A DNA stretch of 64,000 bases. Origin: Gaiella occulta (GTDB taxonomy: Bacteria > Actinomycetota > Thermoleophilia > Gaiellales > Gaiellaceae). The notes under the pieces were generated by a model. That model was given only the letters and a program-made list of their open reading frames with translations, was not told the origin of the DNA and made no database searches. The DNA lies in the NCBI RefSeq assembly GCF_003351045.1, contig NZ_QQZY01000003.1:62001-126000 (forward strand). The letters run 5' to 3'. The number at the start of each line of letters is the position of its first letter. Position 1 is the stretch's first letter. Made by a program: the position numbers and the translations under genes. This document shows, piece by piece, positions 20,636-24,701 of the stretch.

Positions 20636-20669
20636 GAGCTGCGTCACCCACGAATCGAAGGAGGGACGC

Positions 20670-20894
20670 ATGGACACAGCGCTCGCGCTCGCGGCCCCGG
20701 CCTACAAGCCGCCCGCGCTCGCCTACCGCGGCGAGGTCGCCGAGACGGACGAGGTCGTCTGGTGGATCGTCGTCGTCGGCTTCGCCTATGCCATCGCGCT
20801 GGCGTACGCGGCCTGGTGCCGCCACGGTGGCGGCAGCGCCGAGATCCAGTTCGGCTGGTCGGGTTTCAAGGTTGTCTGCAAGAGCCCGTCCTGA
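20670..20894 (+). CDS. candidate precursor peptide with one membrane helix and two C-terminal-side cysteines
   Basis: A 74-residue protein with an excellent ribosome site (GAAGGAGGG at 20657-20665). Residues 1-28 are a leader-like segment ending in an acidic patch (GEVAETDE). Residues 29-49 form one hydrophobic helix (VVWWIVVVGFAYAIALAYAA). Residues 50-74 are a short tail with Cys50 and Cys70, able to form a disulfide, and a Gly/Trp/Phe-rich sequence (GGGSAEIQFGWSGFKVVC). It heads a cassette of ABC transporter genes and a PqqD-domain intramembrane protease, so I infer that it is the substrate of the system. No family is recognised. It could instead be a small structural membrane protein. Confidence 0.7.
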   Translation: MDTALALAAPAYKPPALAYRGEVAETDEVVWWIVVVGFAYAIALAYAAWCRHGGGSAEIQFGWSGFKVVCKSPS

Positions 20895-20900
20895 GAGCGG

Positions 20901-20929
20901 CGGGAGGGTGGCGTCGAGCCACCCTCCCG
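20901..20929 (+). terminator. 12-bp hairpin between the peptide gene and the ABC ATPase gene
   Basis: A perfect stem, 20901-20912 with 20918-20929, loop GTCGA. It begins 6 nt after the peptide stop and encloses the GTG of the next gene. It could end most transcripts (high peptide, low transporter) or hide the transporter's start codon. No T-run follows. Confidence 0.55.
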
Positions 20930-21681
20930 TTCCCCTCGTCGCCCGTGGTCTCGCCAAGCGCTACGGCCGCGCAGCGGCTCTGGCGGACGTCGACGTGCGC
21001 GTGCCCGCGGGCCGGGTCGTCGGTCTCGTCGGCCCGAACGGCTCCGGCAAGACGACGCTGCTGCACGTCGTCGCCGGCCTGACGCGACCCGATGCGGGAA
21101 CGGCCGTCGTTGCGGGCGAGCCCGCGGGCAGCCGGCTCGCCCGTGCGCGGGTCGGTCTCGTGCCGGACGAGCCGGCCGGCTTCGACGAGCTCACGGTGGG
21201 AGAGCTCGTGGCGCTCGTGCACGGGCTCTGGCGCGCTGGCGACGAGGCGACCGTCCGCGCGCGCGTGCTGCTCGACGCGTTCGGACTGGCTCCGCGCGCC
21301 GGGCAGCGGCTCGGCTCCCTCTCCCGCGGACTGCGCCGGCAGGCGAGCATCGTCGCCGCGTTCTCGCTCGCCCCACCGCTCGTGCTCGTCGACGAGGCGA
21401 CGGCGACGCTCGACCCGGAGGCGATCGTGGTGCTGGACGAGGCGATGCGCGCGCTCGCCTCCCGCGGCTGCGGCGTCCTGCTCGCGACCCAGGACCTGGC
21501 GTTCGCGGACGCGTCGTGCGACGAGCTCGTGCTGCTCGCGCAGGGCCGCGTCGTCGAGCGCGGGACCCCGGCCGAGCTACGAGAGCGGCGACGCGCGTCG
21601 TCGATCGAGGAGGTCTTCCTGGATGTCGTCGGAGAGCGCGGCCTGCGCGGTCGGGTGCGGGATGACCTGGCTGCTCTGTAG
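20908..21681 (+). CDS. ABC transporter ATP-binding protein of the peptide cassette
   Basis: Nucleotide-binding subunit of an exporter, 257 residues from GTG 20908, the only reasonable in-frame start. Walker A is GPNGSGKTT and Walker B LVLVDEA. The signature is degenerate (LSRGLRRQ instead of LSGGQ), and the switch histidine is replaced by Gln in LLATQDL. These changes may slow ATP hydrolysis or reflect a specialised role. It overlaps the permease gene by 20 nt. Its start codon lies inside a stable hairpin. Confidence 0.85.
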   Translation: MASSHPPVPLVARGLAKRYGRAAALADVDVRVPAGRVVGLVGPNGSGKTTLLHVVAGLTRPDAGTAVVAGEPAGSRLARARVGLVPDEPAGFDELTVGELVALVHGLWRAGDEATVRARVLLDAFGLAPRAGQRLGSLSRGLRRQASIVAAFSLAPPLVLVDEATATLDPEAIVVLDEAMRALASRGCGVLLATQDLAFADASCDELVLLAQGRVVERGTPAELRERRRASSIEEVFLDVVGERGLRGRVRDDLAAL

Positions 21682-23065
21682 GGCGCTGTGCGTCTGCCAG
21701 CTCCGGCGCCTCGCGTCACTGGCACGGCTCTCGCCCGTTGCGGCCGCGCTCACCTGCGTCGCGCTCGCGGGGGCGCCCGTCCTCCTCGCGCGGCTCGGCG
21801 CCGTGCTCGCGCGCGAGCTCGGCCCGTCCCTCGCCGACGCGGCGGTCGCCCGCGCGCTCGTCGTCGGCCCGCTGCTCGCCGCCGCCGCCGCGGGCGGCGT
21901 CCTCGGCCTCTCCGCCCGCGGCCGGGGCGAGCTCGGGCCGCAGCTCGCCGCCGCCCCGGTCGGCGCGATGGCGGCCGTCACGGCGTCGGCGCTCGCCCCG
22001 CTGCTCCTCGCCGCTGCGGCCGTGCTGCCGGGTGTCGCCGCTCTCGCCCTCGTGGTCGCTGCGGCCTCACCGGGAGGGCGCCCGGCAGGCGTCGCGCTCA
22101 CGCTCGTCCCCGTTGTGGGCGTGGCCGCCGGAGCTCTCGCGGTGGAAGCGATCGCCCATGCCGCTCGCGGCCGCCTGCTGGCGCCGCTCGTCGTCGTCCC
22201 CGCCGCAGCCTGCTGGCTCGCCGCCGGGGCGTGGGCGGGCGACGTTGCGCTCGGCCCGGTGGGCCTGACGGCCCTGTCTCTCGCGGGGTCGCAGGGCGCC
22301 TGGCAGGCGGTCGCCGGGTCTGCGGCGGCGGGCGCAGCGCTCGCGGCAGCCTGGGCGTGGCTCGCCGCCGTGCGGCCGCCGGCCGCACGGCGGCGAGCGC
22401 TTCGCGCGACGGCCGTCGTGCGCGGAGTCGGTGCGCTCGCGGCGGGAACGGCCGTCCTCGCGCTCCTTGCGCGGCGCGGCGAGACACGCATCGGGATCGC
22501 CTTCGCGTCGTTGCTCGGCGTCGCCGGGGTGGTGCTCGCCACGGCCTCGGGCGCGGGCGCCCCGGCGCCCTTGCAGCTCGGGGTGACGAGCACGCTGCTC
22601 GGCGCCGCGCTCGTGCCGACGGCGACGGCCGGAGCCGTCCTTCGCGGCCGCTGGCTGTGGGCGGCTGCCCCCACGGGGCGCCTGACGCCTCCCGCTCCCG
22701 CCTCGCTCGTCGCGGCGGCGGTCGTCCTCGCGGCCGTCGCTCCCGTCGTCGTCCTGGCAGCCGTCGTGTCCGGCGCTCGCGGCGGCGCGCTTGCCTCCGT
22801 GGCGGCGATGCTGGCCGGGACCGTCGCCGTCGCGGTACTGGCCGGCGTGCTCGTCCCCTGCCGCGGCGGCGGCATCGGCGATCAGCTTGCCACGTTCGCC
22901 GCCTTCGCCGCCTGCCTTGCCGCGGCGTCGGTGCTGGCGGGCCTCAGCGGGCCGCGCCTCGTTGCCGCGGGGCTGCCGTCGCCTGTGGCCGCCGCCCTGC
23001 TCGTCTGCTGCGCGTGGCTGGCTGCGCACGGCGCCTTCGTGGCACGCGTGCGCAGGGGCGGCTGA
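21662..23065 (+). CDS. multi-pass membrane permease of the peptide cassette
   Basis: A 467-residue, very Ala/Val/Leu-rich integral membrane protein with roughly a dozen hydrophobic segments and almost no large soluble domain. It has no family motif I can name, but its position between the ATPase and protease genes and its 20-nt overlap with the ATPase gene make it the membrane partner of the exporter. The stop overlaps the next ATG by one base. Confidence 0.75.
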   Translation: MTWLLCRALCVCQLRRLASLARLSPVAAALTCVALAGAPVLLARLGAVLARELGPSLADAAVARALVVGPLLAAAAAGGVLGLSARGRGELGPQLAAAPVGAMAAVTASALAPLLLAAAAVLPGVAALALVVAAASPGGRPAGVALTLVPVVGVAAGALAVEAIAHAARGRLLAPLVVVPAAACWLAAGAWAGDVALGPVGLTALSLAGSQGAWQAVAGSAAAGAALAAAWAWLAAVRPPAARRRALRATAVVRGVGALAAGTAVLALLARRGETRIGIAFASLLGVAGVVLATASGAGAPAPLQLGVTSTLLGAALVPTATAGAVLRGRWLWAAAPTGRLTPPAPASLVAAAVVLAAVAPVVVLAAVVSGARGGALASVAAMLAGTVAVAVLAGVLVPCRGGGIGDQLATFAAFAACLAAASVLAGLSGPRLVAAGLPSPVAAALLVCCAWLAAHGAFVARVRRGG

Positions 23066-23880
23066 TGCTCGAGTCCGGCGACCGCCTCGTGCTGCCGCAT
23101 GGGGTGGCGCTGCGCGACGGGCTCCTCGCCGACGAGGTTCGGGGCGAGGGATGGCCGCTCAACGCCGCCGGGGAGCTGGTGCTGGCACGCGTGGGCGCGA
23201 GCCTGGCAGAGATCGTGGACGAGGTCGCCGCCACGTTCGCCCTCCCCGTCGCCCGCGCCCGCGCCGACGTGCTCGCCTTCGTCTGGCAGCTCAACCGCCT
23301 CAGCCTCGCGAACCTCGACCATCCCGGTGGACGCCTGCGTCGTCTCCTGGCCTGGCTTCGCCTGGCGGCCCGGCTGCTCCCCGCCGGCGCGATTCCCCAC
23401 TCGACCGCGCGCCGGCATCCCGTCGACACGACCTCCGCACGCAGATCCGTGCTCACGGTGTTCGCCGCGGTGTGGCGGCGGGCGGCGGCGATCGCTTTCC
23501 TCGGCGTGCTCGCGGTCGCCCACGTCGAGGCGTTCGCCGGCAGCGTCGAGCCGTCCGCTGCGCTTGCGATCGGGGCCGCCTGCGGCGGAGGGCTTGCGTT
23601 CCACGAGGCGGCGCACGCGGTGGCGCTGCGCGGCGTTCCGACGGCGCTCGTCGTACGCGGGCGGCGCACCTACCTCCTGCACGCCGCGCTGGCGTCCCGG
23701 CGCCGGGCGCTCGTCGCGCTCGCGGGCCCGCTCGCCGTCGCCGCAGCCGGCGTCCTTGCCGCGGCGGTCGCCGCCGCGCTCGGATCGGCATCCGTGGCGA
23801 TCGCAGCCGGGCCTCTCTGCGCGCACGCGGTCGCTCTCACCGTCCTCGCCTCCGACGGGAGGGCGGCATGCGGATTGTGA
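23065..23880 (+). CDS. PqqD-like domain fused to an M50-type intramembrane metalloprotease
   Basis: A 271-residue fusion. Residues 1-85 match the PqqD/RRE fold, which binds leader peptides in RiPP systems: LVLPHGVALRDGLL, then GWPLNAAGELVLARV, SLAEIVDEVAATF and VLAFVWQLNRLSL. Residues 135-271 are four hydrophobic segments with the zinc motif HEAAH (His180, Glu181, His184) and the third ligand in SDGR (Asp264), as in site-2 proteases. I infer that it recognises the 74-residue peptide through the PqqD domain and cuts it in or near its membrane helix. M50 proteases are known in YydH and daptide peptide systems, but I know of no such PqqD fusion there. Confidence 0.82.
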   Translation: MLESGDRLVLPHGVALRDGLLADEVRGEGWPLNAAGELVLARVGASLAEIVDEVAATFALPVARARADVLAFVWQLNRLSLANLDHPGGRLRRLLAWLRLAARLLPAGAIPHSTARRHPVDTTSARRSVLTVFAAVWRRAAAIAFLGVLAVAHVEAFAGSVEPSAALAIGAACGGGLAFHEAAHAVALRGVPTALVVRGRRTYLLHAALASRRRALVALAGPLAVAAAGVLAAAVAAALGSASVAIAAGPLCAHAVALTVLASDGRAACGL

Positions 23881-24131
23881 AGGCATTCCTCCTCGGCGCG
23901 CTCGCGGCGGGGCTGCTCGCCTACACGGCCGCGGCCGCGCTCGCGGCCGTCTCGCAGGCGTCCGGCGCGGATGTGCTCCGGCTCGCGCTGGGACCGCTCG
24001 TGCTCGTCGCCGTGGACACGCGGGCGGGCACCACGACGACCACCTTCGGCTCGGGCCTGCTCGTGCTCGCCGTCGCGGGCGGCCTCGCAAACGCGCTCGC
24101 GGCGACGGTGCTCGCCCGCCGCTCACGTTGA
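23868..24131 (+). CDS. small two-helix membrane protein at the end of the peptide cassette
   Basis: An 87-residue protein whose ATG overlaps the protease gene by 13 nt. Two long hydrophobic segments (residues 5-33 and 62-83) flank a short loop with a Thr-rich stretch (TRAGTTTTTFGSG). Translational coupling puts it in the cassette; an immunity or accessory membrane role is a guess. No family is recognised. Confidence 0.65.
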   Translation: MRIVKAFLLGALAAGLLAYTAAAALAAVSQASGADVLRLALGPLVLVAVDTRAGTTTTTFGSGLLVLAVAGGLANALAATVLARRSR

Positions 24132-24159: not shown

Positions 24160-24414
24160 ATGGTCTGGGAGATCGTCTTCATGCTGCTGATCCTGAAAAT
24201 CCCCATCGTCTATCTCTGCGTCGTCGTCTGGTGGGCGATCAAGGCAGAGCCGCTGCCGGCCGAACCGGCGCCGCTCGTTCCCGTCGACGACACGCCGCCG
24301 GGCGGCGCGCTGGCGCGCTCCGGCACCGTGCGTGCGCGCAGGCCTGTCAGGCCGCGGCCGAGCCGCAGGCCCGGCCGGTCGCCTCGCAGCGCACGCGCGG
24401 AGGTGCGCCGGTGA
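24160..24414 (+). CDS. small membrane-anchored protein with Pro/Arg-rich tail
   Basis: An 84-residue protein. Residues 2-26 are one hydrophobic helix (VWEIVFMLLILKIPIVYLCV), residues 29-50 are Pro/Glu-rich, and the tail after 55 is strongly basic (repeated R-R-P). The tail probably contacts nucleic acid, phospholipid or teichoic-type polymers in the cytosol or at the membrane. Its end overlaps the next GTG (GTGA), so the two genes form a pair. Function unknown. Confidence 0.55.
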   Translation: MVWEIVFMLLILKIPIVYLCVVVWWAIKAEPLPAEPAPLVPVDDTPPGGALARSGTVRARRPVRPRPSRRPGRSPRSARAEVRR

Positions 24415-24701
24415 GCGCCGTGGACGAGCGGAGGGAGCGCTACACGGCCGTCGACGCCGTCGCCGGCCTGCTCGGCGTCGCGTCGGTGGCGCTGTCGGGA
24501 ATCGCGATGGGCATGGGCCTGATCCTCGAGCTCGAGGCGCGCCCCGCGCGCACCGCTCCGATCGCGATCATCCTCGCGCTCGTCGTCGCGCGCATGAGCC
24601 CGCGCTACGAGAAGCTCGCCCTCAAGGCAGCCCTGTTTGCCATGCTCGCCTGGGTGGTCGGAATGACTCTCGCGGTCATCACCGGAAACCCGCTCATCTG
24701 A
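24411..24701 (+). CDS. small three-helix membrane protein
   Basis: A 96-residue protein starting at GTG 24411 inside the end of the preceding gene. After a charged N-terminus (VDERRERYTAVDA) come three hydrophobic segments at about 16-40, 48-62 and 72-92, with the positive loop RMSPRYEK between the second and third. No family is recognised. Confidence 0.6.
   Translation: MSAVDERRERYTAVDAVAGLLGVASVALSGIAMGMGLILELEARPARTAPIAIILALVVARMSPRYEKLALKAALFAMLAWVVGMTLAVITGNPLI

Follow-up and report, generated by a model that had tools for sequence, protein, structure and literature searches.

A five-gene cassette of Gaiella occulta predicted to link a lasso-type leader peptide and its recognition domain to an intramembrane site-2 protease

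Lasso peptides are encoded by clusters (A, B1, B2, C, D) in which a B1 protein of the RiPP recognition element (RRE) type reads a YxxPxL leader (RiPP, ribosomally synthesized and post-translationally modified peptide). In one studied group this motif occupies positions -17 to -12 (PMC10368454), and the 21-residue leader of the lasso peptide humidimycin, MSAIYEPPALQEIGDFDELTK, contains YEPPALQEIG with its Tyr at -17 (PMC7168211). In the daptides the protease MpaP is a fusion of an RRE to a site-2 protease (S2P) (PMC10036551), and linear polyphosphorylated peptides (LPPs) show that YxxP/RRE modules can pair with a membrane-type protease (PMC13381572). Here we analyse a window of 64,000 nucleotides (the whole stretch of DNA considered) from Gaiella occulta, whose genome assembly measures 3.03 Mb at 97.9% completeness. 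The window holds a cassette of five packed genes on the + strand (20670-24131), encoding a peptide, an ATP-binding cassette (ABC) transporter ATPase, a polytopic permease, a fusion of an RRE of the PqqD type to a site-2 protease, and a small protein with two transmembrane (TM) segments. We consider it likely that the cassette is an RRE-dependent pathway for peptide maturation and export, in which a lasso-type leader is read by the RRE-site-2 protease and a core of about 46 residues is exported.

Features of several known systems are combined here. As in the daptides, an RRE is placed N-terminal to an intramembrane site-2 protease and a leader would be removed from a hydrophobic peptide (a comparison made by description); the window protease thus has the daptide-type RRE-S2P architecture. 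A reading of the DNA from its letters alone (the sequence-only reading) had taken this architecture to be new, which it is not, because MpaP (PMC10036551) is already such a fusion and longer PqqD-M50 fusions exist within this order. Daptides differ in that each cluster encodes several precursors, with an ELExMEAP leader and an invariant Thr at the C-terminus, along with a decarboxylase, an aminotransferase and a methyltransferase. Neither the ELExMEAP leader nor the C-terminal Thr occurs in any of the five peptides discussed below, and none of the three enzyme genes is found in the cassette or the scanned flanks. With lasso peptides the locus has in common the YxxPxL leader, a B1-like RRE, predicted leader removal and an ABC exporter, but the cassette contains no B2 transglutaminase-like protease or macrolactam cyclase, and its predicted core of about 46 residues has a membrane helix. 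A B2 protease (PF13471) is not matched anywhere in the 97.9% complete genome; a cyclase is absent from the cassette and flanking genes according to a Pfam scan, which for this enzyme did not cover the rest of the genome.

LPPs (PMC13381572) are alike in coupling a YxxP leader and a lasso-like RRE to a membrane-type protease, an archaeal-type signal peptidase that replaces B2. They differ by a discrete RRE, an HprK-like kinase and a nucleotidyl (NTP) transferase, their occurrence in Bacillota and their variable C-termini. The epeXEPAB (yydFGHIJ) operon of Bacillus subtilis likewise unites a short peptide, an M50 protease and an ABC transporter, but includes the radical SAM epimerase EpeE/YydG, and no such epimerase was found among the genes of our operon and the scanned flanks. 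Some groups of circular bacteriocins include an S2P-M50 gene (PMC8534725, PMC8659200), so that one cluster encodes the bacteriocin precursor, its transport and an M50 protease; in the portions of these sources that were available, a SpoIIM protein gene belongs to the groups and an RRE is not mentioned, whereas the lasso-type leader and two conserved cysteines belong to the present cassette. What appears distinctive, judging from the sequences, is that a leader and an RRE of the lasso type would direct intramembrane proteolysis, with neither the lasso protease nor a nearby modifying enzyme, and that the predicted helix-hairpin product is conserved. In the literature searched (most subscription journals fell outside it) there was no paper on a lasso-type leader with an RRE-S2P fusion lacking a modifying enzyme.

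The strongest evidence for the pathway is a two-sided match between leader and RRE, by which the view that this RRE reads this peptide's leader appears well supported. The precursor gene (20670-20894, + strand) encodes 74 residues, for which homologues and a model suggest a leader at 1-28, a helix at about 23-52 and a beta-hairpin at 56-71, with cysteines at positions 50 and 70. Its leader contains YKPPALAYRG (20703-20732), an instance of the YxxPxLxxxG sequence recognized by lasso-type RREs (PMC7168211, PMC10368454, PMC12710340). The other four leaders read YAAPALAFTG, YTAPALAFTG, YAAPAISVEA and YEPPAVVWPG. YxxPx[LIV], like the wider lasso-type pattern YxxPx[LIVFA], is present in all five, and YxxPx[LIV]xxxG in four; on shuffling of the window peptide the latter has a chance probability of about 0.001. 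In the three nearest homologues conservation of the peptide is lowest in the leader, yet all five keep Tyr12 and Pro15 unchanged.

The partner domain lies at the N-terminus of the protease (23065-23880, 271 residues). Residues 23-78 match the PqqD family PF05402 (30.1 bits, cut-off 23.4), and the only NCBIfam model to match is the lasso PqqD chaperone (E 2.4e-7; its 30.9 bits lie below its own cut-off of 70), to which four of the five protease homologues match. TfuB1, a lasso B1 protein, is the top profile match among solved structures, though a weak one (E 0.022). In the structural model (pLDDT 86, pTM 0.82) the N-terminus adopts an RRE fold, as expected from the PqqD/RRE domain that the sequence-only reading had assigned. 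Foldseek ranks lasso B1-leader complexes first (best TbiB1-leader, target TM 0.79, E 0.047), and in a VIA alignment the model superimposes from residue 6 to 84 on the chains of lasso B1 proteins, with a Z of 10.1 and an rmsd of 1.3-1.4. Asn33 (codon 23161-23163) and Asp68 (codon 23266-23268) are invariant in all five proteases, and TfuB1 has Asn and Asp at the aligned positions. In the B1-type RRE LppB, Asp70 forms a hydrogen bond with the leader Tyr and Asn33 fixes the Pro kink (PMC13381572). N33 and D68 of the window protein would be the counterparts of LppB N33 and D70, as judged by spacing and that paper's account rather than by a direct alignment with LppB. The pairing of RRE and peptide is thus predicted because a YxxPx[LIV] leader meets an RRE with invariant Asn33 and Asp68, and the hand-off of the peptide from the PqqD domain to the protease, already suggested from the letters alone, gains strong indirect support from the same match.

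The remainder of the protease carries the motifs of an M50 enzyme: the zinc-binding HEAAH (HExxH, residues 180-184, 23602-23616), LAGP at residues 219-222, and SDGR (residues 263-266, 23851-23862), presumably the motif of the third zinc ligand. H180, E181, H184, G221, P222, D264 and G265 (HExxH, A-x-x-G-P, D-G) are invariant in the five homologues. The M. jannaschii site-2 protease mjS2P (3b4r) is among the fold matches of the helical domain (VIA, 127 residues within 115-265, rmsd 4.2; Foldseek, E 1.2). The M50 assignment, on which the two readings agree, draws on motifs and fold, of which the modelled fold is less firm here than for the RRE.

The peptide reading frame is a real gene, since homologues are found in four other genomes (46-71% identity) and the differences from the two closest of them cluster at third codon positions (proportion of synonymous differences pS 0.46-0.48 against a nonsynonymous pN of 0.17-0.18). 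A Shine-Dalgarno sequence, AAGGAGG, precedes it (20658-20664, + strand) and also stands 5' of the peptide start in three of the relatives (G001, G002, G003). The hydrophobic segment spans about residues 29-47 in the window peptide. A model based on the five sequences (mean pLDDT 68) shows a disordered leader, a helix at 23-52 and hairpin strands at 56-61 and 66-71; no meaningful match to it was found in the PDB. A second peptide match in G003 (C165, E 5.7e-5) was dropped as a LemA-like protein by eye.

We propose that the cytosolic, lasso-B1-like RRE binds the YxxPx[LIV] leader of the 74-residue precursor, and that the tethered site-2 protease would then cut this leader off after Glu28, where the membrane begins or slightly within it. 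The released core of about 46 residues would consist of the hydrophobic helix followed by the beta-hairpin, with its two cysteines 20 residues apart (a spacing kept in all five homologues), and would be carried out of or through the membrane by the ATPase and permease. The cysteines probably form a disulfide that closes outside the cell, and the small two-TM protein might provide immunity or act as an accessory. The cut is placed after residue 28 because lasso precursors have their Tyr at -17. Applied as a ruler, this distance yields ETDE/VVWW in the window and QQDD/VIWW, ETED/VVWW, QLDE/AVWW and EQP/WVVW in the others, which is exactly the boundary between acidic and hydrophobic residues in four of the five homologues.

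The sequence-only reading had put the cut within the membrane helix, and the lasso leader length would move it to the acidic/hydrophobic edge of the membrane instead. A cut inside the helix by the same machinery, freeing only the C-terminal hairpin bounded by the cysteines (about 25 residues), would agree with what is usual for site-2 proteases, namely cleavage within a transmembrane helix or close to one, and with a C-terminal part that is conserved (41-83% identity) and modelled as a hairpin. Nonetheless, we regard it as unlikely, given that the helix itself is conserved (48-86% identity) beyond what an anchor requires and that the leader-length rule points to a site ahead of it.

A number of observations weigh against the proposed maturation and export pathway. 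Concerning the leader, chance occurrence of the short YxxPx[LIVFA] motif alone is not rare when residues are shuffled (0.04-0.09). Concerning the protease, no Pfam M50 model matches it, the Z of 8.5 for the helical domain on mjS2P is not strong by itself, and the model has a pLDDT below 50 in the C-terminal stretch that includes Asp264. The charges flanking the peptide helix (-2 to -4 on the N-side, 0 to +3 on the C-side) argue, by the positive-inside rule, for an N-out orientation of a freely inserted peptide and against a simple N-in one; the leader would therefore be hidden from a cytosolic RRE unless it were bound before insertion. Finally, conservation is higher in the peptide than in most of the machinery (71% identity to G002 for the peptide against 41-63% for the machinery), opposite to most arms-race bacteriocins. 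This difference suggests a defined target or a structural role for whatever biological activity the product may have, rather than that of a fast-changing bacteriocin.

The same conservation, together with the single helix, might also indicate that the peptide is a membrane-bound regulatory or sensory protein that is degraded by the RRE-S2P protein in regulated intramembrane proteolysis, with the ABC transporter as target or partner. Site-2 proteases often act in signalling, which would fit such a role. We find this explanation quite unlikely, because a lasso-type leader and an RRE are typical of the handling of biosynthetic leaders, the cassette has no recognisable regulator, and its all-or-none presence fits a pathway that makes a product.

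RREs usually serve modifying enzymes, and RiPP pathways with enzymes encoded outside the cluster are known (PMC8960859, in the part available of this source). It might be argued, accordingly, that the product is a modified RiPP of the conventional kind, made with a tailoring enzyme that is unrecognised or encoded elsewhere in the genome. The flanking genes were scanned by Pfam and, like the cassette, hold no modifying enzyme, so that the absence noted by the sequence-only reading stands for this region; the sole PqqD-family match in the genome is the protease itself, and a lasso B2 is lacking. We judge a conventional RiPP very improbable, with the reservation, which also counts against an unmodified product, that tailoring enzymes elsewhere are only partly excluded because the genome-wide searches covered PqqD and lasso B2 alone and not other RiPP enzymes.

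Comparison with relatives shows that gain or loss affects the entire cassette at once. G002, G003 and G033 share the order peptide, ATPase, permease, protease, small protein; in G001 and G097 a contig end truncates the locus, and the part present agrees with this order. In the window and in G001, G002 and G003 the peptide gene comes right after a glycoside-hydrolase-like gene. In G004, G006 and G024 that gene directly abuts the counterpart of 24160-24414 and the cassette is absent; the cassette is therefore a discrete unit, as an empty site lies between the same flanking genes. Two small membrane-protein genes (24160-24414 and 24411-24701), just upstream of the 2-oxoglutarate dehydrogenase gene (kgd), were rejected as cassette members, as both adjoin kgd even without the cassette, and 37 of 61 relatives carry a gene related to the second, whether the cassette is present or not.

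The distribution of the cassette is narrow. The peptide was found in 5 of 129 genomes of the order and the full-length protease in 5 of 399 sampled genomes of the class; no further genome with the protease appeared in a sample of 396 from the phylum, and no homologue of it in a plasmid collection. One named relative was found, a Thermoleophilia metagenome-assembled genome of the same genus. Co-occurrence of peptide and protease had been set beforehand as a check, and the two stand together in all four loci that are not ended by a contig (window, G002, G003, G033), so that no intact locus has the protease without its peptide. Where other genomes matched M50 only or PqqD only, we read the hits as site-2 proteases of the ordinary kind or as PqqD-like proteins on their own, and in the other genomes scanned no match spans both domains outside one family.

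The longer PqqD-M50 fusions of the same order look like another family and were set aside. Three of them, with open reading frames (ORFs) from 452 residues (ended by a contig) to 820 residues, follow a repetitive protein (L138, 2259-2921; L139, 1908-2897; L147, 2164-3006). These upstream proteins share SLPNKEVMSLLDVNANVDLGLDLAAPxDLAxAANLNVAAPIEA, which gives the impression of a substrate-protease pair of a different family. A further ORF of 809 codons (L140, G065:C13) combines PqqD, an M50 domain (HEFAH) and, seemingly, an HlyD-type adaptor. At L145 and L146 the PqqD-like domain is C-terminal in ORFs of 507-517 codons, with a second PqqD match adjacent on the opposite strand; these may be further RiPP loci that belong to the same family.

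Between the peptide and the machinery genes lies an RNA hairpin with a perfect 12-bp stem (20901-20929, + strand), which overlaps the likely GTG start of the ATPase. Strong hairpins occur at the same position in all five genomes and show compensatory changes: of the 15 pairs of the consensus hairpin, 6 are preserved through paired substitutions in one or more of the five sequences. Such hairpins commonly set the ratio of precursor to machinery in peptide operons, and by analogy this one probably ensures that more peptide than machinery is made.

Genes 2-5 of the cassette overlap. The ATPase (20908-21681) matches PF00005 (E 1.5e-24), and the 467-residue polytopic membrane protein (21662-23065) is presumed to be the ABC permease, although no Pfam model matches it (four homologues checked). 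The small two-TM protein (23868-24131, 87 residues) is a conserved member of the homologous loci. Identity as a defence system was rejected, as the models match the ATPase alone, which is expected for any ABC or AAA ATPase. The five-gene content of the sequence-only reading (coordinates, motifs, two cysteines, one helix, fusion protein) was recovered in full, and the RNA hairpin, the lasso-type leader motif and the empty site in relatives add to it.

With confidence a little short of even, we suggest that the cassette represents a new peptide class, in which RRE-guided intramembrane proteolysis would be the sole dedicated maturation, the lasso leader and RRE having been rewired from the soluble B2 to a site-2 protease and an otherwise unmodified, disulfide-closed helix-hairpin peptide being exported. 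If this is true, the leader/RRE recognition module would be transferable between protease chemistries, and an RRE could serve a pathway with a protease as its only dedicated enzyme. The five genes would form a minimal system for RRE-controlled intramembrane proteolysis, with defined residues on both partners. They also suggest a rule for genome mining: short peptides with a YxxP leader, beside RRE-S2P fusions that have no tailoring genes, may mark such pathways, and for want of those genes they may be overlooked.

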